Shown here in pieces: positions 9,355-20,670 of a stretch of DNA of 64,000 nt. Position 1 is the first letter of the stretch. Each line of letters starts with the position of its first letter. This DNA is from Arsukibacterium sp. UBA3155. Lineage in GTDB: Bacteria > Pseudomonadota > Gammaproteobacteria > Enterobacterales > Alteromonadaceae. The notes under the pieces were generated by a model. It did no database searches and had not been told where the DNA came from. It saw only the letters and a list, made by a program, of their open reading frames with translations. The stretch lies in NCBI GenBank assembly GCA_002364615.1, contig DEYP01000003.1:1-64000 (forward strand). Reading direction: 5' to 3'. Made by a program: the position numbers and the translations under genes.

Positions 9355-10337
9355 TTGAGTTGTTAAATAGCCAGGGCCGGGTCACCGAGCGTCATAAATT
9401 TAACCAGCCACAAATTAGTCTGGGCAGGGGATACAACAACGATATTATCTTGCTGGATCCACACAGTTGCGCCGAACACGCCGTATTGACCCTGAACGAC
9501 CAGCAACAATGGCAGCTAACGGATATGGACTCGGTAAACGGCATGCTTAACCAGCGCGGGCAGCGGGTTAAGCAACAGCCCATAACGCAGTCTGGTCAGC
9601 AATTTACCCTTGGCAAGCAGCGGTTAAGGGTGGTCTTCAGTGATCACCCGGTGCCGGCAACCCAACGTTTACAGCCAGCTGAGCGGCTGTTTCAATGGCT
9701 TGGCTCACCACTGGTGCTAATTGTGGCGCTGTTACTGGTGGCAATTAGCTTGGGTTATGAATTCTGGCTGGACGGCATTGGCGAAGACAGTCAGTGGCAA
9801 AAACAACTACTGCTTATTCCCTTTCTCTTATTGATGTTTGCCCTGTGGCCCTTGTTGCTGGCACTGTGGGCTCGCTTCAGTAACCGCGAACCGCGCCTGA
9901 AACCGCTATTAGCGTTGACATTTTGCCTGTTAGTCATCTGGGCCGGCTGGGATATTCTGGCGGCGCTGCTTAATTTTAACCTGAACAATAGCATGCTTAC
10001 TCGAGGCTTAAGTTACTTACTCCCTACCTTACTGCTGCTGGTGTTTTTCTGGTTTAGCTTTGCCTTAGTGAATATTCAGCGCCGCTGGCTGCATATTGGT
10101 CTGACTTTGCTGTTCAGTAGCTTATACTGGGTATACCCATGGCTTGAATATTCCGATGCCCACTACTCGCCTCAATTTGAGCATCAATTGTTGCCTCAGG
10201 TTTTGTTATTGCGCCAGCCAACCGCTACCGACATTTTTATGGAGAAAACTGAGCTGCTATTTACCAACACTGCGGCTAAAGCAGAAAAAGACCGGGTTGA
10301 AAAGGCTGCAAAAAGAAGCAATGCCCCAGAGGCTTAG
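9342..10337 (+). CDS. FHA-domain integral membrane protein
   Basis: The 331-residue protein starts with a forkhead-associated domain (residues about 3-100). The phosphothreonine-binding signatures are present: GR at 28-29, the S-x-x-x-H block at 42-46 and N66-G67. The remainder (about 120-290) holds four to five hydrophobic segments and a short charged C-terminal tail. The FHA domain is predicted cytoplasmic, reading phospho-Thr signals, while the overlapping upstream gene encodes a periplasmic protease. This suggests a trans-membrane signalling or regulated proteolysis pair. I know no named system with exactly this composition. Confidence 0.85.
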   Translation: MAILIELLNSQGRVTERHKFNQPQISLGRGYNNDIILLDPHSCAEHAVLTLNDQQQWQLTDMDSVNGMLNQRGQRVKQQPITQSGQQFTLGKQRLRVVFSDHPVPATQRLQPAERLFQWLGSPLVLIVALLLVAISLGYEFWLDGIGEDSQWQKQLLLIPFLLLMFALWPLLLALWARFSNREPRLKPLLALTFCLLVIWAGWDILAALLNFNLNNSMLTRGLSYLLPTLLLLVFFWFSFALVNIQRRWLHIGLTLLFSSLYWVYPWLEYSDAHYSPQFEHQLLPQVLLLRQPTATDIFMEKTELLFTNTAAKAEKDRVEKAAKRSNAPEA

Positions 10338-10352
10338 CTAAAAAGTGCCGTT

Positions 10353-10380
10353 AAAAAAAGGCAGCCTGGCTGCCTTTTTT
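10353..10380. terminator. bidirectional terminator
   Basis: GGCAGC (10360-10365) pairs with GCTGCC (10369-10374). The stem is flanked by seven A on the left and six T on the right, so it works on both strands. It lies between the converging FHA and DUF945-like genes and should terminate both. Confidence 0.9.
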
Positions 10381-10413
10381 CGGTTGCGGGTACCTCACTA
10401 ACGCGCTGCCAGA

Positions 10414-11367
10414 TTAATTGGCAACCATTTTCAGGTTAGCAAACTCAATCATTTGCTCCGGGGTTTGCAGTTCAGCCATTAACGCACCCGATTGCACCGC
10501 TTCAAAGCTAACCGGCTCGGCAAAGTTAATATTTACCTGCAGTTTTTCTGGCTGATTAATAAAGGTGGTCAGACTTTCTTTCATTGTCAGCGGCAAATTT
10601 TCATCAGCAGTAATTGCCATTAACGCCATACCTTGTAAGGCATCCAGCGGTGGCATCTGACCCTGAGCGCTGGCCATAGCGACCAGGCGCTGAATAAAGC
10701 CATCGTTAGTAATAACCAATTCACCACTTTTCAGCGCACCTTTTACCAGATTCGCCATTACATCCGTCATGTAGCTATCTGACATACTTAAGGCTTGTTG
10801 CTCTTCTGGTGTTTTCTCACTCATGTCACGGGCAAATGCCCACAGTTCCTGCATTTGCGCGAACGAGAAGTTGTAAGCCACACTAAATTCGTCATTTACC
10901 CGGGTAACCTGGCTGAAATATAATTCACCGTTCGCTGGGGTATATTGGTAACTGTAGTCGGCATGTAACACCACACCTTTCACAAACTCGCTCATCTGCG
11001 GTGGTAACATGGCCAGCATGGGCTCGGACATTTTGGCGCCAATCAGTTGCGCGCTGCCTTTGTCGGCCAGGCCCTTAGGCTTCAAGCCCACTGCAGTTAC
11101 TTTTTCAATGGTAGCCACTTGCCCCATGCCAGCAACACTGACATCGACACCGCTAACGCTATAGCTGGACGTTAACACGTTGGCCGCCACATCCTGATAA
11201 CCAATGCTAATTGCTGGCATTAAACCGCTAGCGGCCATCTCTGCATATGACTGATTTGCCAGTTCAATTTGTTCTTTAATGGCATTTTCAGCTTGCGAAT
11301 TGGCGTAATAAAAGCCCGCAGCGGCGGCAACCACAACAATACCGGCACCAACAACTAATTTATTCAT
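10414..11367 (-). CDS. DUF945/YdgA-like exported protein
   Basis: A 317-residue protein with a single N-terminal hydrophobic segment (residues 3-24), then a SQAENAIKEQIELANQ start typical of YdgA-like envelope proteins. The rest is soluble and beta-rich, predicted periplasmic. Assignment to DUF945 rests on this N-terminal pattern and overall composition. The length is shorter than E. coli YdgA (about 500 residues), so the family call is tentative. Function unknown. The gene is transcribed leftward and ends at the shared terminator. Confidence 0.6.
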   Translation of the reverse strand: MNKLVVGAGIVVVAAAAGFYYANSQAENAIKEQIELANQSYAEMAASGLMPAISIGYQDVAANVLTSSYSVSGVDVSVAGMGQVATIEKVTAVGLKPKGLADKGSAQLIGAKMSEPMLAMLPPQMSEFVKGVVLHADYSYQYTPANGELYFSQVTRVNDEFSVAYNFSFAQMQELWAFARDMSEKTPEEQQALSMSDSYMTDVMANLVKGALKSGELVITNDGFIQRLVAMASAQGQMPPLDALQGMALMAITADENLPLTMKESLTTFINQPEKLQVNINFAEPVSFEAVQSGALMAELQTPEQMIEFANLKMVAN

Positions 11368-11488
11368 ACTAATCCTTTATTCACTATTATTTATAAAACG
11401 AATTTTTTACAAAAGCGGGAAATCGTAGCATAACACCTTAGTCTGCGAAAAGTGAGTTGCTTCACTATTTCATGATTAGCTTAACTAT

Positions 11489-11556
11489 GCTGAAATAATT
11501 GGGCTGAAATAATTGGGCTGAAATAGTTGGGCTGAAATAGTTGGGCGGTAATAATT
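11489..11556. repeat. 14-bp tandem repeat array (about five copies)
   Basis: The unit GGGCTGAAATAATT is repeated head to tail: a partial copy at 11489-11500, copies at 11501, 11515 and 11529 with one A/G variant, and a diverged copy at 11543-11556. The array occupies the divergent intergenic space between the DUF945-like gene and the TRIC channel gene. It could be a length-variable promoter element or binding-site array. The short minus-strand ORF over it is only the translated repeat. Confidence 0.9.
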
Positions 11557-11641
11557 GACCTTTGCAACGGGAAAGCATTTACCTGCTTCAGAAAGCCTGC
11601 TAGCGTAACGCTATCTTTTTCCGGCAAAATTATCTTTCGCC

Positions 11642-12274
11642 ATGGCAACGTATTTTCTGTGGTTTGACTTACTGGGCGTTGCAGTATTTGCCGTATCCGG
11701 CACCCTGGCAGCATGGCGCAATCAAATGGATGGCTTTGGGGTAATTGTGCTGGCCAGTGTTACGGCTATTGGTGGTGGCACCTTGCGCGATCTTATTTTA
11801 GATGTGCCGGTGATCTGGATAAACGATAATAGCTACTTTTATGCCATTTTAATCGCTGCCGTTGGCACTATTTTACTAGTACGTAACCGCTTAACCATTC
11901 CGCACAATACCCTGCAGCTCTTTGATGCCTTAGGCCTGGCATTCTTCGTTATTATGGGCACCCAAAAGGCGCTCGACTTCGGTACATCCACCCTGGTGGC
12001 CATTATGCTGGGTACTATGAGCGCAGTTTGCGGCGGCATGATCCGCGATGTGCTTTGCCGGGAAATTCCCATGGTATTTAGGGGTGAGTTATATGCCGTT
12101 ACCTGCCTGGTAGGTGGTGGTGTTTATACCGGTTTACTGGCGCTTGGTGCAGCCCAGTTGCCCGCGATGCTGGCCGGAATGTTGGCATTATTGCTGCTTC
12201 GCCTGGCGGCAATTAAGTGGCAAATTACTATAGCGGTTTTTGGTAAACACCATAACGAGTTAAATGAGCCCTGA
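11642..12274 (+). CDS. trimeric intracellular cation (TRIC) channel family protein
   Basis: The 210-residue integral inner-membrane protein (YicG/YadS, formerly UPF0126) shows two homologous halves. The glycine-rich helix break SVTAIGGGTLRDLIL in the first half recurs as TMSAVCGGMIRDVLC in the second. This inverted duplication of GGG/R-D motifs with about seven membrane segments is diagnostic of prokaryotic TRIC channels, which form homotrimers conducting monovalent cations. The next gene starts 2 bp after the stop, suggesting co-transcription. Confidence 0.9.
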   Translation: MATYFLWFDLLGVAVFAVSGTLAAWRNQMDGFGVIVLASVTAIGGGTLRDLILDVPVIWINDNSYFYAILIAAVGTILLVRNRLTIPHNTLQLFDALGLAFFVIMGTQKALDFGTSTLVAIMLGTMSAVCGGMIRDVLCREIPMVFRGELYAVTCLVGGGVYTGLLALGAAQLPAMLAGMLALLLLRLAAIKWQITIAVFGKHHNELNEP

Positions 12275-12276
12275 TA

Positions 12277-13497
12277 ATGCCTGCTGCCAGCCCACCTTTA
12301 ATGAACAGTAACCCCAGCCGTTTGGTGCAACTGGATATCATCCGTGGTTTTGTCATTTTAGGCATCATATTGATGAACGTATTTGCCTTCGCCAACCCGC
12401 CTGATTATTCGCACAGCCTGATTTGGCAACCCGCTATCAGTGCTTTAGATATTGGCTTGTACAACCTGCAAACGCTGTTATTTTCCGGCCGGTTTTTAAC
12501 CTTGTTTAACCTGTTGTTCGGAGTAAGCCTGCTACTTATCGTGGAAAAGTATGGTGAGCGCTATCTACGTCGCCGCTTAAACTGGCTGGTTGTTGTGGGT
12601 CTTTTGCATATCAGCTTTATCTGGTTTGGCGATATTCTGCTGTGGTATGCCGTTACTGGTTTATTAGTACTAAAACAGGGATATCATAAACTCGATACCG
12701 CTGCGCTGTGGCGCAAGGGTGCCATGTTATTTACGATTTCGTTAATAATGCCGGCTATTTACAGTGTGTATTTGCTATTGTCTCCGCCACCACCGCTGCA
12801 GCCACTCGATGCCGAGGTATTACTGGCACAGCAGCTGCTGTGGACCGGGCCTTACCTGGCTCAGTTAACCGAGCAGCTATGGCTGAACCTCATTATGCTG
12901 ATCGGTTTTGTGATGACCCTGTATTGGCTAATGGCGGCACTGATGGTATTTGGCATGGCACTTTATAAGAGCGGCTGGTTTAGCCAGGGCTATTCACGAC
13001 GCATTACCATCCTGTTATTTCTGACGTCCCTGGCAATCAGCGGCAGCACTGCAGTGCTGGATCATCTGACCGGTTACGGCTACGATCTCGCGGTATCTCT
13101 GCCGTGGGAGCAAATCAGTGCCTTATTAATGGCGCTGGCCTTTGCCAGCGTCCTGATTAATGCCCGGCAGCAGCCAGCCTTGTATCAAGGGTTGCAACGC
13201 TGGCTGGCACCTTGCGGCCGCATGGCATTTACCCTGTACTTAAGCCAGAGCCTGCTAATGGTACTGCTGTTTAAAGTGATTAAACCCGACTGGTTTGCCA
13301 GCCTGGACCGGCTATCGCTACTTGGCATTGCCATTGCCACCATTATGCTGCAACTGCTGTTTTGCCGCTGGTATCTGCAGCACTTTGCCCAAGGCCCGCT
13401 GGAATGGCTCTGGCGACGGTTAAGTCAGCAGCCGGTTGCTGCTGCCGACACTTCCGAAGCGAATACCAATACAACCAAAGATATTGAGCATAAATAA
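12277..13497 (+). CDS. DUF418 family integral membrane protein
   Basis: A 406-residue polytopic protein. The opening QLDIIRGFVILGIILMNV is the conserved start of the DUF418 family (YeiB-like), and the last quarter has the family's GRMAFTLYLSQS segment. About ten membrane helices are evident. Function is unknown; members resemble acyltransferase-like or transport proteins. The first ATG (12277) is coupled to the TRIC stop; an internal ATG at 12301 fits the family start equally well. The C-terminal tail is polar and variable. Confidence 0.85.
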   Translation: MPAASPPLMNSNPSRLVQLDIIRGFVILGIILMNVFAFANPPDYSHSLIWQPAISALDIGLYNLQTLLFSGRFLTLFNLLFGVSLLLIVEKYGERYLRRRLNWLVVVGLLHISFIWFGDILLWYAVTGLLVLKQGYHKLDTAALWRKGAMLFTISLIMPAIYSVYLLLSPPPPLQPLDAEVLLAQQLLWTGPYLAQLTEQLWLNLIMLIGFVMTLYWLMAALMVFGMALYKSGWFSQGYSRRITILLFLTSLAISGSTAVLDHLTGYGYDLAVSLPWEQISALLMALAFASVLINARQQPALYQGLQRWLAPCGRMAFTLYLSQSLLMVLLFKVIKPDWFASLDRLSLLGIAIATIMLQLLFCRWYLQHFAQGPLEWLWRRLSQQPVAAADTSEANTNTTKDIEHK

Positions 13498-13500
13498 CTT

Positions 13501-14127
13501 GTGAACCCCTACACCGAACTGGCCGCGCCGGTAGAGTATCGTCTTATTGAGAAAAATAGTGAATTTCTAAGCTTTCTGCTGCCGGTTCGCAGCCGCGATG
13601 AAGCGATGGCCCTGGTTAATCAGTACCGCGAGCAATATCGGGATGCCAACCATGTCTGTTGGGCTTATATTATTGGCAATACCCGCCAACCTCAAACACA
13701 GGCTTTCAGCGACGATGGTGAACCGGGCGGCACCGCCGGTAAACCGATGCTGCATGTGCTGACCGAACAAGAGCTGGGCAATTGCCTGGCGGTGGTGGTG
13801 CGCTACTTTGGCGGCGTTAAACTCGGTGCCGGTGGCCTGGTGCGGGCGTATTCGGCAGCGGTATCGCAGGCGGCAGCGCTGGCCACTACCACTACAGTTT
13901 TGCCACTGGTGCAGCGTATTATTACCCTGGATTTTGCCTTTGAAACCAAAGCCCGACTGTTATTAGAGCAGCAGGGTGGTCAGTTACTCAATGCCCAATA
14001 CAGCCAGCAGGTGCAGTTAACGGTTAACCTGCCACTGGCCAATATCGATGATTTTAGCCAGCAGCTGCAAAATATCAGCTCGGGCAGTGCGGGAGTTAAT
14101 GAGGTTTCGCCTTCTGCCGATCGTTAA
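13501..14127 (+). CDS. yigZ: IMPACT/YigZ family protein
   Basis: A 208-residue cytoplasmic protein with the N-terminal UPF0029/IMPACT domain. Recognisable blocks are FSDDGEPGGTAGKPML and VVVRYFGGVKLGAGGLVRAY, the hallmark of the family; a small ferredoxin-like C-terminal domain follows. The eukaryotic homologue IMPACT regulates GCN2; the bacterial role is unclear. The likely start is GTG at 13501, 3 bp after the DUF418 stop, so the gene closes a three-gene run. The SMC operon begins 129 bp downstream. Confidence 0.93.
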   Translation: MNPYTELAAPVEYRLIEKNSEFLSFLLPVRSRDEAMALVNQYREQYRDANHVCWAYIIGNTRQPQTQAFSDDGEPGGTAGKPMLHVLTEQELGNCLAVVVRYFGGVKLGAGGLVRAYSAAVSQAAALATTTTVLPLVQRIITLDFAFETKARLLLEQQGGQLLNAQYSQQVQLTVNLPLANIDDFSQQLQNISSGSAGVNEVSPSADR

Positions 14128-14169
14128 CAGGCCCTGACATAGCTATTGTTACTGCCAGCCTATTTCAAA

Positions 14170-14198
14170 CTGGCATTTGGTCGCATTCCATGGATAAT
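14170..14198 (+). promoter_or_regulatory. candidate promoter of the Wadjet-like operon
   Basis: CTGGCA (14170-14175) and GATAAT (14193-14198) are 17 bases apart, placing the start near 14205. The -35 hexamer forms the right half of a perfect inverted repeat TGCCAG (14153-14158) / CTGGCA, so a repressor binding this palindrome could control the operon. Consensus-based inference only. Confidence 0.35.
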
Positions 14199-14220
14199 AA
14201 GCCTCATTAAAACGACAATA

Positions 14221-14242
14221 GCGGCGCCGCTTTTCGCGCCGC
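14221..14242 (+). promoter_or_regulatory. GC-rich 5' UTR hairpin upstream of the SMC gene
   Basis: GCGGCGC (14221-14227) and GCGCCGC (14236-14242) form a perfect 7-bp stem with an 8-nt loop. There is no T tract, so it is not a normal terminator. It ends 14 nt before the preferred ATG at 14257 and just before the ribosome site (ACAGGA), where it could limit translation initiation of the operon. Confidence 0.5.
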
Positions 14243-14256
14243 CGACAGGATGCGCT

Positions 14257-17200
14257 ATGTCTCAGTTACTTCGTATTGTGCTTATTCACACCCACCTGCC
14301 AGGGGTGGTGGAATTGCAGCTGGATCAGCACACTAATATTTGCGGCACCAATGCCTCGGGCAAGACCACCTTACAACGTTTAGTACCGGTATTTTATGGC
14401 GAGCAGCCCAACCGGGTAGTGCCAAAAACCCGCAAAAAGTTTGATGAGTTTTACCTGCCATTTTCTAACAGCTACCTGATTTACGAATACCAGCGCGAAG
14501 ACGGCGCCCTATGTCAGGTGGTACTCACTCGCAAAAGTGATGGCGGGGTGGAATACCGCTTTGTCGGCGCAGCCTATCAGAGTGATTTTTACTTAACCGA
14601 AAGTAGCGAGGGCGTCAAAGCCTTAAGTTATAACGACTGGGCAGCAGCAATGCGCGGCCGGCCTGAGGTGCAGGTATCAGCGAAAATCAGCGCCACCAGC
14701 GAGTATCGCAGCATTATTCAGAACGATGCCGGCGCACTGCGTGGCAATAATGCCGATAGCGTTAAACTGCGCAGGTTAGCTGCCAGCTTTAGCTTAGTCA
14801 GCAGTGGCCATAAACTGCGCCATATTGAAAAACTGGTCAGTGCGGTGCATGCCAAAGAAGGCAAAATGGACACGCTAAAGTCGATGCTGGCGGCCATTTT
14901 TGAAGAAGACGGCGTTACCCTGCCCACCACCAAAGTAAAAAATACCAAAGCACGGGACTGGATATTGCAAATGCGCCAGTCGATGCGCCTCGATAAACTG
15001 CAGCAGGATTTTGGCCGCTTAAAGCAACTGGCCCAGCAACTGGACGGCAGTGAGGCCCAGCTTGCGGCGTTGCTGCCGCTGCTGGTGCAGGACGAGCAAA
15101 ACCAGAAACAACACAAAGCCGATGCAGAGCAGCAGGTGCTTAGCCTGCGCGGTCAGCTGCAAACCTTAAAAGAGCAATATAGCCAGCAACAGTTAGAGCA
15201 AAGTAGCCAGCTGGCCAAAGCCGAAGCTGATTTACATGAAACCAGTGCCCGGCTCGATCAGTTACAGCAGCGCTACGATGAGTTTGACGGCCAGGATATG
15301 CCCAAACTGCAGCGCGACACGGACGCACTGCCACTGTGGCGGGAAAATCTGGCCGAAGTGCTTGAGCAATATCAGTTAATGGTAGAGCAGCATGGCGATT
15401 TAGAGCGTCAGTTAGAGCAGCGCAAAATGAAGCTGTCTGAAAGCTTTAACCGCTTAAGCGAGCAACACCGCGCTAAGGCCCGCCAGCTGCAGCAACAAAA
15501 AGATAGCACCCGTGAGCAGCAAGACAGCAAATTATCAGAGTTAGAGCACGCCTTTAGTCAGCGACAACAACAGGCACAGCAACAGTTTAGTAGCCAGCTT
15601 ACCGATGTCAGCAGCAGTATTGCCGTGCTGCACAGCCAGTTAAAAGGGTCGATGCTAACGGCAGCCGAGCATGAAGAGCAGCGCAATGCCGACGTACGCT
15701 TAGAAGATGCTCAGCAGCAAACACAGCAGCAGGGCCGTCAGTTACAGCAGCTGCAACAGCAGTACCAGCAGGCCAGAAGCGCCCGAGATCAGGCAGATAC
15801 TGAGCTGGAGCTTAGCCGCAAAGCACTGCACAGCAGCGAGCAGCAATTACAGCAATTGCACCGTCAGCTGACACCAGAGCAAGGCAGCTTGCGCCACTTT
15901 TTACGGCTGCACTATAACGGCTGGGAGCAAAAACTGGGCAAAGTACTGGACGAGCGTTTATTAGAGCGCCAGGACTTACAACCGCATTTGGCCGATATCA
16001 GCGACAGCCTGTATGGCTTACAGCTTGAGCTGACGGCCATCGACACCCCGGATTACGCCCAGGACGAAGCCGCCATTCGCCATCGCATTCAGGCAGCTGA
16101 GCAACAACTGGAGCAGGCCACTGCCGGCAAATTTCAGGCTGAAAAAACCTTAAAAGAGCGCCACGAGCAAGCCGAGCTTAGTCGTTCTCAGGTAGAGCAA
16201 GCGCAGTGGCAGCTAACCCAGTATGAGCAAAATATCGAGTACGCCCGCGATGCCCGTAATCGCTTGCAGGCACAGCAGCGTGAACTGAATGCGCAGCGCC
16301 AGGCCAGTGTTAAAACCGAATTAGCCGCACAGCAGCAACAGCTGGAAAAACTGCAGCAGCAGCAACACGCCGATTTACAGGCGCTGCAAAGTGATCATCA
16401 AAGCCAGAAAATGGAATTAAAAGCCGACTGGCAGGCCGAGCTGCAGGTATTTGATGAGCAAATTGACGAGCTGGAGCGCCAGCTGGAGCATAAGCGCGAT
16501 GACAATAAAAACCAGATTAAAGAGTTGCAGCAGGCTTTTAATGAAGAGTTATCAGCCAAAGGCATCGACCCGCGCCGTTTAACCGAACTGAAGCAAAAAC
16601 AAGAGCAGCTAAAAGGCGACATTAAAGCGGTAGAAGCGCGTCAGGATCAGCTAACTGCCTGGCAGCAATTTATTAAACTGGACTGGCAGCAGCTGCGGCC
16701 GCAACTGTTAGAGCGGGAAACCGCACAGAAACAACAGCAGCGAACTGCCCAGCAAGCGCTGGAGCAGCAAAAAGCCAGTTACAGCAGCAATGCTAAAAAG
16801 CTGGAAGAGCAAAAACGCCAGCAGCAAGAGCGGATGAGCCAGGCCGAGCAATTACTAAACCAGATTAAACCGGCGCTGCACAAACTGCAGGAGCTGCATC
16901 TGGCAGCCATTACCCCGGCCACGTTAAGCGGTTCTGCCGATTTAATAGAACGGCTGGCGCGTGCCAATGAAGCATTAGAGCAACGCAGCAAAGCCGACAG
17001 CGCATTAAAAACTGCCATCGACCAGTTTGAAAGTATGCTAAGTAAAGATGCCGGCCCGGAGTTTTTAGACCGGCTGCAGCATGAGAAACGCAAGCTGCCT
17101 GATTATGCCGCTGAGCGGCAGCAACTGCCTATTTTGCAAAACCTGCTGGAAATATTAAAAGGTGCCCAGCAGCAATTGCTGGAAATGGGCGAGAATATTG

Positions 17201-17922
17201 GCGGCGATCTGAAAAAGTTCTTTACCGTGTTTAGTGATATTAACCGGCGTATTGCGCTGCAAAGCCGCCGGTTAAGCGAAGCCGTCGCCGACGATTTAGT
17301 ACTGGAGGGCATCAGCCGCTCAGAAGTGCGCATTTTGTCTACCATTGACGAGCTGGGTTTCTGGCAGCCGTTAAAACACTTCGCCAAATTATATGATGAC
17401 TGGGGTGCATCGGGCAAAGCGCTGCCCTCTGAGCAGTACTTAAATGCCTTAGCCGACGTGGTAGAACTGCTACGTAGCGATGAGCAGTACAGCATTGAAT
17501 CCTTGCTGCGCCTGGAGCTGCATTTAAGCGAAGGTGGCTCAGAGCTGGTGATTAAAAACGACCGCCAGCTGCTGGAGTCGTCCAGCCATGGTATGGCTTA
17601 CCTGATTTTATGTAAGTACTTACTGGCCTTTACCCGCCTGCTGCGTGGCGATGCCAAGGTGGCCATTCATTGGCCGATTGATGAAATCGGCACCCTGGCC
17701 TATCACAACGTAGAGAAGTTATTTGCCGCCTGTAGCAGCAATAATATTGTCATTGTCGGCGCCTTCCCTAACCCGGAGTCTGACGTATTAATGCTGTTCA
17801 GCCATCGCTATTTAATTGAGCCGAGCCAGCAAGACCCGAGCAAACGCCAGTTAAAACGCATTCAACCTAAAGTCAGCCGGCTGGCAGAGCGGTTGGCCAG
17901 TAAACAGCAGGAGGCAAGCTGA
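14257..17922 (+). CDS. jetC: Wadjet-like SMC ATPase (JetC/MksB type)
   Basis: The 1221-residue protein has the full SMC layout. An N-terminal head carries Walker A GTNASGKTT (residues 30-38). A long, very Gln-rich coiled coil follows (about 250-550), then a small hinge (about 555-640) and a returning coiled coil to about 950. The C-terminal head has a degenerate signature ESSSHGMAY (about 1107-1115) and Walker B HWPIDE ending at Glu1143. The MukB-like head and small hinge fit JetC of Wadjet or MksB of MksBEFG, ATP-driven loop extruders that sense plasmid-sized circles. I chose ATG 14257 over a TTG 37 codons upstream because it has a ribosome site and the family-like start. The stop overlaps the next ATG (TGATG). 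Confidence 0.88.
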   Translation: MSQLLRIVLIHTHLPGVVELQLDQHTNICGTNASGKTTLQRLVPVFYGEQPNRVVPKTRKKFDEFYLPFSNSYLIYEYQREDGALCQVVLTRKSDGGVEYRFVGAAYQSDFYLTESSEGVKALSYNDWAAAMRGRPEVQVSAKISATSEYRSIIQNDAGALRGNNADSVKLRRLAASFSLVSSGHKLRHIEKLVSAVHAKEGKMDTLKSMLAAIFEEDGVTLPTTKVKNTKARDWILQMRQSMRLDKLQQDFGRLKQLAQQLDGSEAQLAALLPLLVQDEQNQKQHKADAEQQVLSLRGQLQTLKEQYSQQQLEQSSQLAKAEADLHETSARLDQLQQRYDEFDGQDMPKLQRDTDALPLWRENLAEVLEQYQLMVEQHGDLERQLEQRKMKLSESFNRLSEQHRAKARQLQQQKDSTREQQDSKLSELEHAFSQRQQQAQQQFSSQLTDVSSSIAVLHSQLKGSMLTAAEHEEQRNADVRLEDAQQQTQQQGRQLQQLQQQYQQARSARDQADTELELSRKALHSSEQQLQQLHRQLTPEQGSLRHFLRLHYNGWEQKLGKVLDERLLERQDLQPHLADISDSLYGLQLELTAIDTPDYAQDEAAIRHRIQAAEQQLEQATAGKFQAEKTLKERHEQAELSRSQVEQAQWQLTQYEQNIEYARDARNRLQAQQRELNAQRQASVKTELAAQQQQLEKLQQQQHADLQALQSDHQSQKMELKADWQAELQVFDEQIDELERQLEHKRDDNKNQIKELQQAFNEELSAKGIDPRRLTELKQKQEQLKGDIKAVEARQDQLTAWQQFIKLDWQQLRPQLLERETAQKQQQRTAQQALEQQKASYSSNAKKLEEQKRQQQERMSQAEQLLNQIKPALHKLQELHLAAITPATLSGSADLIERLARANEALEQRSKADSALKTAIDQFESMLSKDAGPEFLDRLQHEKRKLPDYAAERQQLPILQNLLEILKGAQQQLLEMGENIGGDLKKFFTVFSDINRRIALQSRRLSEAVADDLVLEGISRSEVRILSTIDELGFWQPLKHFAKLYDDWGASGKALPSEQYLNALADVVELLRSDEQYSIESLLRLELHLSEGGSELVIKNDRQLLESSSHGMAYLILCKYLLAFTRLLRGDAKVAIHWPIDEIGTLAYHNVEKLFAACSSNNIVIVGAFPNPESDVLMLFSHRYLIEPSQQDPSKRQLKRIQPKVSRLAERLASKQQEAS

Positions 17923-18542
17923 TGTTACAACACGGACCGATACTCGAGCGCCTGCTGGCCGGCAATTTTATTTGTCAGATAAGCGACGAAGATGCCTTTC
18001 GCCATTTAAGCAATGAGCAAACCCAGCAGGACATTAACCACTACCTGCGGCCGTTAAACCGCCGCCTGGTCAGTAACGACGATAACAGTGTGTTTTTTCT
18101 GGGTTATCATGAGCTGAACAAAGACGCCCGTGAGCAGTTAAGCAGCCAGTTTTCGTTAACAGTGCAATCGCTGATGCCATTATTAGAATGGCTGCAACTG
18201 GTGCAGGAAACCCTGGGCCGCGACAGCGCGCTCACCGCGGGTGACACCATTAAGCTGCAGGAGTTTGTGCTGCGCACCGAAGATAACCAGAGCCTGCGCC
18301 AGCGCTTAAACCAACTGGCCAGCGACCGCTTTTTTAATAGCCAGAGTGAGCAGCTGGATAACCAGGTAAAGCTGATTTTCCGCCGCTTAAAAGAGCACGG
18401 CTATTTGCTGCAGCCGCATCATGATCGCCAGTACTATGTGGTCACCGGCAAAATTGACTATTTAATTGATGTGATACGCTTTATCCGGGATGAAGAGCAA
18501 TTACCGGTAGAAGACACCCCGAATCAGGAGGCCCTGCTCTGA
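17922..18542 (+). CDS. jetB: Wadjet-like KITE subunit (JetB/MksE type)
   Basis: A 206-residue protein between the SMC and kleisin genes, overlapping each by one base. Sequence is consistent with a MukE/JetB-type KITE subunit: small, acidic, with predicted tandem winged helices, including IFRRLKEHGYLL followed by YVVTGKIDYLIDVIRF near the C-terminus. It should dimerise and bind the kleisin inside the SMC complex. Recognition rests on context, size and fold pattern more than on a strong motif. An AGGAGG site lies upstream inside the SMC gene. It lacks the large N-terminal extension of some MksE proteins. Confidence 0.78.
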   Translation: MLQHGPILERLLAGNFICQISDEDAFRHLSNEQTQQDINHYLRPLNRRLVSNDDNSVFFLGYHELNKDAREQLSSQFSLTVQSLMPLLEWLQLVQETLGRDSALTAGDTIKLQEFVLRTEDNQSLRQRLNQLASDRFFNSQSEQLDNQVKLIFRRLKEHGYLLQPHHDRQYYVVTGKIDYLIDVIRFIRDEEQLPVEDTPNQEALL

Positions 18543-19801
18543 TGGCAGCATTAGACTCTGGCTCAACAGCGGGCACGGCCTCTAACCTGTTTAATATTGG
18601 CAGCGAGCGTCTGGCTTTGCTCGGCAAACACCATAAAGCCTTAATGCAGGGTTATCTGGACGGTTTTATTGATGAAACCGCCTTTAGCGAAGGTGCATTA
18701 AAAAAGTTGATCGCTGCGCGTATTTTATGGCGGCCAGATGAGCAGCAACCCCTGGCATTGCGGCCATTAGTCAGCGAGCTGATTGCCAGTATGGTGGCCG
18801 ATGAAAACCGCCGGCAAATTAACGCCGACGTAGCGGAGAAGCTGGAGCAAATTCGCAACCGGGTACAGGCTTATCGTGATGCCCAGTATAAAGGCGATTA
18901 CAGTGTGGCCGAGCTGCAACTGCAACGCTTAACCGAGCATGTGCATGATTTAAGCGGCCAGTTTGAAGAGGCCATCGACAGTTTGTGGCACCGGCTAAAC
19001 AGTGACTTCGGCTTTGTCGCGAGCTTAGATGATAAAATTCGTGAAAACGAACGGGCCCAAAAACAACTACGGCGCTTACTCGATGGTCTGGACTTACTCG
19101 ACTTCAGCGAGTTAATTGAGCTGTCTGAGGGCAACAACCATTTACGTAAATTGTTGGTCAGCCAGCTGCAAAACCAACTAAGCTCGCACCACAGCAGTTT
19201 GTTAGAAGTGCAAAAACGGCTGGTCGAATTACTGGCTAAGTTTCGCCAGCAACAGGCACGCTCGCTGCTTATCAGCAATATGGCGGCCTTTTTACGCCAG
19301 CACCCAAAGTATCAGCCAGCCGATTACCCTAACCGCTCAGAATTGCCCGCCCTGTTTAACCAGGCCGCAGCCATAATACCGCAAGCGTCCATTGCGCTCG
19401 ATAAAGCCAGTGAGCGGCAAACCCTGGCCGAATTAGTGCGGGCGCTGCCGCGTTCCAAGCCGGTTAACCTGCTCGATAACCAAAGCGCCAGCTTTAGCAG
19501 TGTCTGGGTAGATGAAGAAATTGCTGCCCGCCAGCAGGCCCTTAAAACCGACGTCGAGAACTTCTACCTTAGGGTGATTGACCAGGGCGGTAAACTCAGC
19601 GCGTTAAGCTACCTGGAGCAACAGGCATTAGAATGGGACAGCGAGATCTGGTTATATCAGATCATCGCTGAATATCAGGCGCTGCCGCAGGATGAAAAGC
19701 AAATGTTCGCCATACTGCGCGACGAAGCCCCGGCCAGCGCCATGAATCAGCTGTTGCTTATCCGCGATATCAGCCTGCAGTTACAAGTACAGGCGGCGTA
19801 A
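18542..19801 (+). CDS. jetA: Wadjet-like kleisin subunit (JetA/MksF type)
   Basis: A 419-residue protein with helical N-terminal winged-helix-like region (about 15-90: ALMQGYLDGFIDETAF, then LRPLVSELIASMV), a central coiled-coil/helical bundle (about 90-270) and a C-terminal region expected to contact the SMC head. Together with its neighbours this is the kleisin (MukF/JetA) role: bridging the two SMC heads and carrying the KITE dimer. No catalytic motif is seen, as expected. Start and stop overlap the flanking genes by one base each (TGATG and TAATG), and an AGGAGG site precedes the ATG. Lack of an easily read signature limits certainty on the exact family. Confidence 0.78.
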   Translation: MAALDSGSTAGTASNLFNIGSERLALLGKHHKALMQGYLDGFIDETAFSEGALKKLIAARILWRPDEQQPLALRPLVSELIASMVADENRRQINADVAEKLEQIRNRVQAYRDAQYKGDYSVAELQLQRLTEHVHDLSGQFEEAIDSLWHRLNSDFGFVASLDDKIRENERAQKQLRRLLDGLDLLDFSELIELSEGNNHLRKLLVSQLQNQLSSHHSSLLEVQKRLVELLAKFRQQQARSLLISNMAAFLRQHPKYQPADYPNRSELPALFNQAAAIIPQASIALDKASERQTLAELVRALPRSKPVNLLDNQSASFSSVWVDEEIAARQQALKTDVENFYLRVIDQGGKLSALSYLEQQALEWDSEIWLYQIIAEYQALPQDEKQMFAILRDEAPASAMNQLLLIRDISLQLQVQAA

Positions 19802-20670
19802 TGAGCTACCCGCCGCTAAGCGCGCAGGCACTGCGTTTCTTGCAGCAACTGCAACAGCGCCTGAACGCCAGTGGCAGTGAGCGGGTAAACACCAGCGTAA
19901 AAGCAACACAACAGGTGCTGCTGTGGTGTATTGAACATGAATTGGTGCCGGGCAACAGCAATAAGCTACCGCACTTTACCTTTAGTCTGGCCTTGCTAAA
20001 AGATATTGCCGTTGTGCAACGAAAATTGCAGCAAGCTTGCTTTTTGGATGATTTAAGCCATAGCAGCCGGCTGAATAATGCCAATTCCAGCCAGCAAGAG
20101 CTAAAAAGTATTGGCCTGCAACCGCGCCAAAACAGGGTATTGCTGCGGCTTAATACGGTGGTAGATACCAACCTCGGCATAACCGCAGAGTTTATCGATA
20201 CCAATTGGCAGCAGCTGCCGCTGGCGCAGTTTGATGCGCTGTTAATAGTAGAAAACCTTGATTGCTTTTATCAGCTAGACGCCTTTTCGCTAGCGCTGCC
20301 CTATCAGCAACCGCTGATTATTTATCGCGGCGATGCATTGTATAGCAGAGGCTGTAAGGCACTAAAAGTTGCCTGGCTTACGCAAAATAAACCGCTATTG
20401 TACTTCGGTGATTTTGACGCCAAAGGCGTTAGCATAGCCTTAAACGAAGGCTACAGCGCCATACTGCTACCGGACTTTACCAACTTGCAACAACACGCCA
20501 GTGCAGCCATGCTGCCAGACAACCAGTTAAGCTTTATCACCGGGATAGCAGCTAAAACACCAGCAACTGAATTTAAGCCATATCAGCAGTTTTTGTGTCA
20601 GCAGTTAAAAGGGCTTAGGCAGCAAAATATGCAGGGAATATCGCTGATACCGGTTAATCTGCTCGGCTGA
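19801..20670 (+). CDS. jetD: Wadjet-like TOPRIM nuclease (JetD/MksG type), short form
   Basis: A 289-residue protein with a C-terminal TOPRIM domain of the DUF2220 type found in JetD/MksG. The catalytic Glu is in LLIVENLDCF (Glu151) and the DxD is in YFGDFDAKG (Asp204, Asp206). These residues coordinate the metal that cleaves DNA after the SMC motor has classed it as a small circle. The N-terminal arm (about 140 residues) is much shorter than in JetD proteins of about 390 residues that carry a DUF3322 domain, so DNA or kleisin contacts may differ. The start overlaps the jetA stop (TAATG). This gene separates a nuclease-armed defence operon from a housekeeping MukBEF. Confidence 0.86.
   Translation: MSYPPLSAQALRFLQQLQQRLNASGSERVNTSVKATQQVLLWCIEHELVPGNSNKLPHFTFSLALLKDIAVVQRKLQQACFLDDLSHSSRLNNANSSQQELKSIGLQPRQNRVLLRLNTVVDTNLGITAEFIDTNWQQLPLAQFDALLIVENLDCFYQLDAFSLALPYQQPLIIYRGDALYSRGCKALKVAWLTQNKPLLYFGDFDAKGVSIALNEGYSAILLPDFTNLQQHASAAMLPDNQLSFITGIAAKTPATEFKPYQQFLCQQLKGLRQQNMQGISLIPVNLLG

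Follow-up and report, generated by a model that had tools for sequence, protein, structure and literature searches.

A reversed-order SMC operon in Arsukibacterium, probably of the MksBEFG/Wadjet superfamily, whose short TOPRIM gene is often missing from relatives

We analysed a 64,000-nucleotide stretch of contig DEYP01000003.1 from Arsukibacterium sp. UBA3155 (positions 1 to 64,000; hereafter the window), in which four overlapping genes encode an SMC ATPase (C), a KITE subunit (B), a probable kleisin (A) and a short TOPRIM protein (D). Sequence comparison suggests that they probably specify a complex of the MksBEFG/Wadjet superfamily, from a mostly unnamed lineage of its own. This would be a loop-extruding, MksBEF-like complex with a role independent of D and an optional Wadjet-type nuclease directed against small circular DNA; the degree of confidence applies to this explanation as a whole. 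The pattern of D loss and of selection on the other genes suggests that C-B-A has a function which selection maintains even where D is absent. Thus, the anti-plasmid activity proposed in the preliminary description of this DNA would probably be half of the function only, as relatives seem repeatedly to lose D and keep the SMC core. The operon and its landmarks are as follows.

14257..17922, + strand: C, SMC ATPase of the DUF3584 family (MksB/JetC-like), 1221 aa, assigned by PF12128 and conserved ATPase residues in the alignment
14344..14370, + strand: Walker A of C, GTNASGKTT, residues 30-38, from the alignment of family C
17581..17685, + strand: C, ABC signature (SSSHG, from S1109) through Walker B (D1142, E1143), from the alignment
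17922..18542, + strand: B, KITE subunit of the MksE family, 206 aa, assigned by PF21980 and the overlap with C
18542..19801, + strand: A, probable kleisin, 419 aa, assigned by weak Foldseek matches, overlap and position
19801..20670, + strand: D, short TOPRIM protein (JetD/MksG/Topo VI-A-like), presumed nuclease, 289 aa
20251..20253, + strand: D, codon of Glu151 (TOPRIM glutamate, VEN), invariant in aligned D
20410..20418, + strand: D, codons of Asp204-Asp206 (TOPRIM DxD, GDFD), invariant in aligned D

Missing nuclease genes and constraint on C-B-A

We surveyed 60 genomes, namely the source genome and 59 relatives (G and L numbers below are our labels for genomes and loci). B was found in 38 of them, C over the cut-off in 39 (one partial) and D over the cut-off in 25, and no genome carried D over the cut-off without C-B-A. 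Within the genus, A was present in 28 of 31 genomes and D over the cut-off in 20.

An intact D was missing from 13 of the 38 C-B-A genomes: eight congeners (of the 28 with C-B-A), three members of other genera of the family and two of other families. In all eight D-less congeners C, B and A are full length and the ATPase motifs are intact. Searches with tblastn found remnants of D after A in five of the eight, with different breakpoints: the missing codons are about 1-27 in G002, 1-26 and 72-127 in G008, 1-24 in G014, 270-287 in G017 and 1-74 in G029, the last of which also retains a C-terminal piece. By eye, D-like start codons are retained in G017 and G026 as well, and neither tblastn nor inspection by eye found a trace of D at the G018 and G025 loci. 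These two genomes have the same small gene pair after A; in G014 the pair lies about 3 kb off. In trees of C-B-A and of rpoB (found in 27 of the 31 genus genomes) the D-less genomes are scattered next to sisters with D. In the C-B-A tree, G026 stands by G004, G008 and G029 near G024, and G017 by G012.

For a wider sample, 120 family loci were examined, their gene content being read in six frames. Two contigs stop too early, which leaves 118 loci with C, B and A; nine of these are second copies within genomes already sampled, so that 109 non-redundant members remain, consisting of the best 79 hits and relatives rather than a random draw. Among their SMCs, 84 are accompanied by an intact D, 3 by a split D and 22 by no intact D. 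The 22 D-less members form 19 maximal D-less clades in a FastTree phylogeny of the 109 SMCs (18 changes by Fitch parsimony). Assuming that D was ancestral and never regained, this would correspond to about 19 losses.

Contig ends are ruled out as the reason for the missing D, as at least 7,678 bases follow A in all 22 D-less loci. We also dropped the idea of a different, hidden nuclease at these loci: inspected by eye, most of them are followed by differing genes, a globin gene in the case of L178. Two strains of Onishia taeanensis (L181 and L188, about 10001-16453) differ in D, As1101 having an intact gene and BH539 a remnant, and their flanks are similar.

Ratios of nonsynonymous to synonymous divergence (dN/dS) were low in C, B and A. 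In eight close pairs of which one or both members lack D, and whose dS is unsaturated, values were 0.008-0.046; in two further pairs dS of C and A was saturated. In ten pairs with D, the range was 0.010-0.162 for C, B and A. D itself had ratios of 0.115-0.308, within each pair 2.6 to 11 times the ratio of C. Where both members lack D (G002/G014 and G008/G029), C-B-A ratios were 0.008-0.026, level with the pairs that have D. The Onishia pairs gave 0.036-0.085.

Two pairs of D-less sisters are older, each with support of 1.0. In Idiomarina L201/L203 C is 82% identical and dS is saturated; in G031/G034 C is 66% identical, dS of C and A is saturated and dN/dS of B is about 0.10. C-B-A is intact in both pairs. 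If each pair goes back to one ancestral loss, C-B-A would have been long-lived without D in them; separate losses are possible.

Operon parts, gene order and the mosaic D

Pfam places C in PF12128 (DUF3584) with 812 bits against a cut-off of 31 (E 1.2e-243, residues 8-1188). Its length is counted from the ATG at 14257; the longest open reading frame (ORF) of the ORF caller begins upstream, at 14146. The Walker A, ABC signature and Walker B labels on C follow the general features of ABC ATPases. B matches PF21980 (MksE) with 36.6 bits against 27. A has no Pfam family above the cut-off, and its AlphaFold model is of low confidence (pLDDT 71); Foldseek ranks 1-3 are chains of the MukE-MukF complex and of MukF(1-287), at E 0.005-0.015 and TM-scores below 0.25. 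D matches PF23947 (DUF7281) with 63 bits against 27 and PF09983 (JetD_C) with 33.3 against 22. Its Glu151, Asp204 and Asp206 are unchanged in 14 of 14 aligned D, and all 20 intact D from the genus have them too. The 14 aligned D have no invariant tyrosine ahead of the TOPRIM part, which fits a nuclease rather than a topoisomerase. These domains and residues, with the weak fold match in the case of A, bear out the four components named in the preliminary description, and the one-base overlaps it had reported are read in the sequence at all three junctions (TGATG at C/B and B/A, TAATG at A/D). In sequence searches of the PDB, C gave no match as a single sequence and only coiled-coil and ABC noise as a profile, and A and B gave nothing useful; an NCBIfam scan of the operon proteins yielded no model above the cut-off.

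C-B-A order was found in all 118 loci with C, B and A, with D last wherever present. The hosts include Rheinheimera/Arsukibacterium/Alishewanella, Halomonadaceae, Paraglaciecola, Idiomarina, Oceanospirillum, Marinospirillum, Ectothiorhodospira, Stutzerimonas, Shewanella and Escherichia coli as well as plasmids, among others. That the operon is unique to this genome is ruled out by this family-wide occurrence. For comparison we used 27 loci, 26 of 39 PF09983 matches and one JetC2 locus. By gene size, 19 of them read A-B-C-D and 8 are not fully readable. None of these loci, fetched via JetD or JetC2 models, showed the order C-B-A-D; the JetD model favours canonical JetD, so this comparison is no census. 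JetD has 375-493 residues in the canonical loci (n=27), and D has 274-310 in 23 of 24 family loci, the remaining one being a 343-aa start call. The reversed order and the short D are thus real and family-wide. Both had been pointed out earlier for this operon, and the shortening amounts to about 100 residues: in a structural alignment, residue 110 of D pairs with residue 218 of MksG.

D evolves faster than its partners and is a mosaic of exchanged parts. Over 171 pairs from 19 genomes with D, mean identity was 85% for C, 88% for A, 91% for B and 60% for D; the correlation of identity with that of C was r 0.42 for D and 0.87 for A. Approximately unbiased (AU) tests with the D data exclude the trees of C, B and A (p <1e-30, log-likelihood differences 479-580). 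The D of the window and that of the sister genome G028 are 72-85% identical per alignment window up to about residue 180 and 38-57% beyond it; A and B of the two genomes are 98% and 99% identical. G015/G030 show the reverse, with 33-57% first and 75-90% later.

Placement among SMC complexes

The preliminary description had considered an undescribed Wadjet subtype. With PADLOC 2023 models, C of the window scored 13.4 bits at best, A none and B 24.7; D scored 26.7 bits (JetD1) and 23.9 (JetD3). The JetC models gave 0 to 24 bits for four other family SMCs and 661-1627 for six JetC used as controls, all of type I and none of type II or III. A tree was built from the head segments of 54 SMCs (479 columns) and rooted on 4 Smc; in it, 27 family SMCs form their own clade with an ultrafast bootstrap (UFBoot) of 100. 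The other side (UFBoot 84) holds 18 JetC of the type I clade (6 typed by PADLOC), one JetC2 and 4 MukB, and the JetC2 pairs with MukB (UFBoot 86), outside the family clade. This tree contains one type II JetC and is without type III JetC and PAO1 MksB; 8 of 26 Wadjet loci were left off it, having no SMC ORF by the rule used. Long branches make the order of the deep splits uncertain, but not the separateness of the family clade. A search with PF21980 in five genomes, seeking PAO1 MksB, gave two matches, both the family's own copies by position.

Thus, profile scores and the tree place the SMC outside the PADLOC Wadjet types, for type III by model scores only. The idea of a new subtype holds in so far as no PADLOC type matches. 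It fails in that the operon is not rare and its sequence is not new either: Pfam holds its families, and the annotation pipeline PGAP labels the E. coli copies MksE, DUF7281 or JetD-domain proteins.

The MukBEF/MksBEF(G)/Wadjet superfamily is characterised by SMC, KITE and kleisin genes in one operon, and the window has all three (A by weak fold match and position) together with the optional TOPRIM nuclease of MksG/JetD type. The marks of the Wadjet types are absent: the proteins score low or not at all with the models of types I-III, the genes do not follow the type I order jetA-jetB-jetC-jetD, and the SMC does not group with JetC2, here a single sequence, as type II would. The family resembles Wadjet I in combining SMC, KITE, kleisin and TOPRIM nuclease genes and in the JetD_C domain of D. 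It differs in its C-B-A-D order, in the shorter D and in the clade of its SMC.

The gene order of Pseudomonas aeruginosa PAO1 MksBEF is F-E-B. Published systems are compared here from excerpts of the papers cited. PAO1 MksBEF appears there as a KITE condensin acting alongside Smc-ScpAB in segregation (PMC7485682) and lacking JetD (PMC10586767). In Corynebacterium glutamicum the MksBEFG operon reads mksFEBG (PMC10123090), and MksG is about 110 N-terminal residues longer than the family D. MukBEF is likewise a KITE-type condensin, described without MksG/JetD (PMC7617805); its MukB clusters with JetC (UFBoot 84), away from the family clade.

A literature search on DUF7281 returned no paper and one on DUF3584 five, none with SMC or defence in its title; in listings of the Wadjet/Mks literature we recognised no paper on this branch. 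The Wadjet types are reportedly from Doron 2018, and MksBEF is said to go back to a paper of 2011. Excerpts mention several distant MksBEF families (PMC7485682) and several Wadjet-group members without MksG (PMC7617805). The latter paper surveys hits to MksB, MksE and MksF that run in the same direction, MksG being optional at the flank, and the family loci may be within its supplementary operon list.

Distribution, mobility and function

Among the 60 genomes Smc was over the cut-off in 46, including 37 of the 38 C-B-A genomes. MukB was over the cut-off in 9, none of which has the family SMC or Smc, and in 0 of the 38. The mutual exclusion of MukB and C-B-A has p 0.005 when each genus other than that of the source genome is represented by a single genome, with phylogeny uncorrected. 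Given the uncorrected phylogeny and the 11 E. coli carriers, which belong to a species with MukBEF, we reduced this exclusion from proof of condensin function to a hint. G045 (L038), of stated completeness 100, has a divergent C-B-A-D with neither Smc nor MukB over the cut-off; C-B-A-D is possibly its sole condensin.

The operon was found in 11 of 5,426 E. coli genomes, always on the chromosome. In strain RM14723 it has gsp/yghD genes on one side and, on the other, an island that contains helicase, TerB-domain and AbiEii-type genes; the annotation there splits D into two pieces. Among the ten matches listed, two copies have IS911 in C by annotation. Escherichia albertii NBRC 107761 (L150) carries C-B-A-D with a C that is 56% identical to that of the window and about 90% alike at the DNA level to the E. 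coli copies.

C-B-A-D order also occurs on plasmids of 213 and 207 kb; Wadjet is reported, in the excerpt of PMC10586767, to cease acting above roughly 100 kb. The window D had no match in the plasmid collection, in which no record held 80% of C in one place and 45 records held part of it. On the IncC plasmid pVIM-Exn692 (L246) the family C-B-A-D adjoins genes for Tn7-like transposition, and an IS256-family element interrupts its SMC gene. A complete C-B-A-D is carried by the 209 kb jumbo cyanophage Dfl-JY45 of Dolichospermum (PP438435.1, L293:3298-9653), with proteins of 1233, 205, 411 and 272 aa (C, B, A, D) annotated as hypothetical. Among 50,697 phage records it is the sole match to the window B or to the phage's own C. 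Pattern scans of viral contigs with the B and C alignments found no relative.

By analogy with the Wadjet/MksBEFG mechanism (PMC10586767, PMC10123090, in excerpt), two copies of C with A and B would form an ATP-driven DNA loop extruder. Extrusion completed on a small circular DNA would activate D, which would then cut the circle; we infer extrusion, activation and cleavage from this likeness. Additionally, C-B-A would have a D-independent job that keeps it conserved, likeliest chromosome organisation or segregation beside Smc-ScpAB, and MksBEF is described as acting in segregation in P. aeruginosa (PMC7485682). That this job is chromosomal is our guess from MksBEF and MukBEF. D may be conditionally useful, at times harmful and fast evolving, and would for this reason be repeatedly lost and its parts swapped between species.

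Several observations weigh against this explanation. We infer the D-independent function from the patterns of selection and loss alone. The breakpoints of D differ and the losses may be recent, so part of the divergence in close pairs may predate them. Long survival without D is indicated by G031/G034 and L201/L203 alone, provided that D was lost just once, in the ancestor of each pair. The 19 D-less clades compare with a mean of 20.4 in shuffled tips; a number so near random shuffling suggests that most D-less lines are young and maybe short-lived. The congeners G007, G011 and G021 are entirely without C-B-A, which is thus not essential. In G003/G005, dN/dS of A reaches 0.162. Trees of C, B and A are in mutual conflict as well (AU p 0.02 down to 2e-20, log-likelihood differences 12-163), so some recombination touches all three genes. 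The modelled A is a probable kleisin, a weak assignment. Finally, the copies in E. coli resemble an accessory island, which is a better fit to plain defence.

Plain defence, in which the operon is of Wadjet type and the D-less loci are dying copies that lost their effector first, would explain the patchy presence, the absence from 3 of 31 congeners, the E. coli island and the plasmid and phage copies. Most D-less tips being young, recent relaxation would hardly be visible in dN/dS. We nevertheless consider it unlikely, as all eight D-less congeners keep full-length C, B and A with intact ATPase motifs, the pairs G002/G014 and G008/G029 are as constrained as pairs with D, and the older pairs G031/G034 and L201/L203 retain intact genes. 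Constraint in D-less genomes would equally be expected if C-B-A defended without D, compacting or silencing circular or viral DNA or using a nuclease in trans. Smc5/6, which silences extrachromosomal DNA, offers a precedent (PMC10586767, in excerpt). Inspected by eye, most D-less loci have different genes following A (trans nucleases were not searched for), and we regard this second possibility as quite improbable. It is very doubtful that D is a chromosome-side helper of a condensin, Topo VI-A/Spo11-like rather than a defence nuclease, even with Spo11 as the nearest solved sequence by profile (E 0.0055; MksG E 0.61) and Topo VI-A at the head of the fold list.

A wider proposal is possible, which we offer tentatively. 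The family may represent one more deep branch of the KITE-type SMC complexes, next to Wadjet/MukBEF and Smc-ScpAB, with loose coupling of motor and nuclease: a lasting motor with its own cellular role, and a plug-in nuclease lost about 20 times in our sample and rebuilt by N- and C-terminal exchange under the pressure of evasion by plasmids. In that case a single genus would contain present-day forms midway between an anti-plasmid machine and a condensin. As relatives repeatedly lost the nuclease and kept the motor, the operon may illustrate how defence machines and chromosome organisers are converted into each other. An open proposal, seen in the excerpt of PMC10586767, derives the MukBEF and MksBEF condensins from anti-plasmid Wadjet via nuclease loss. 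Close environmental species, and even the two O. taeanensis strains, differ in D beside nearly the same motor, so the question is testable with matched strains. The exchanged nuclease parts are a lead to plasmid countermeasures, and the SMC and kleisin of this defence-type operon go unrecognised by PADLOC models.

Upstream of the operon, the gene at 13501-14127 (UPF0029 family), which we take to be YigZ-like, is 78% identical in G028. Between that genome and the window, duf418, trim, duf945, sorb and C-B-A are 86-99% identical, and only D (69%) falls below the 78% of the upstream gene. Promoter-like sites number 8, against 5.7 +/- 2.6 in shuffles, and terminator-like sites 16, against 10.1 +/- 3.6.

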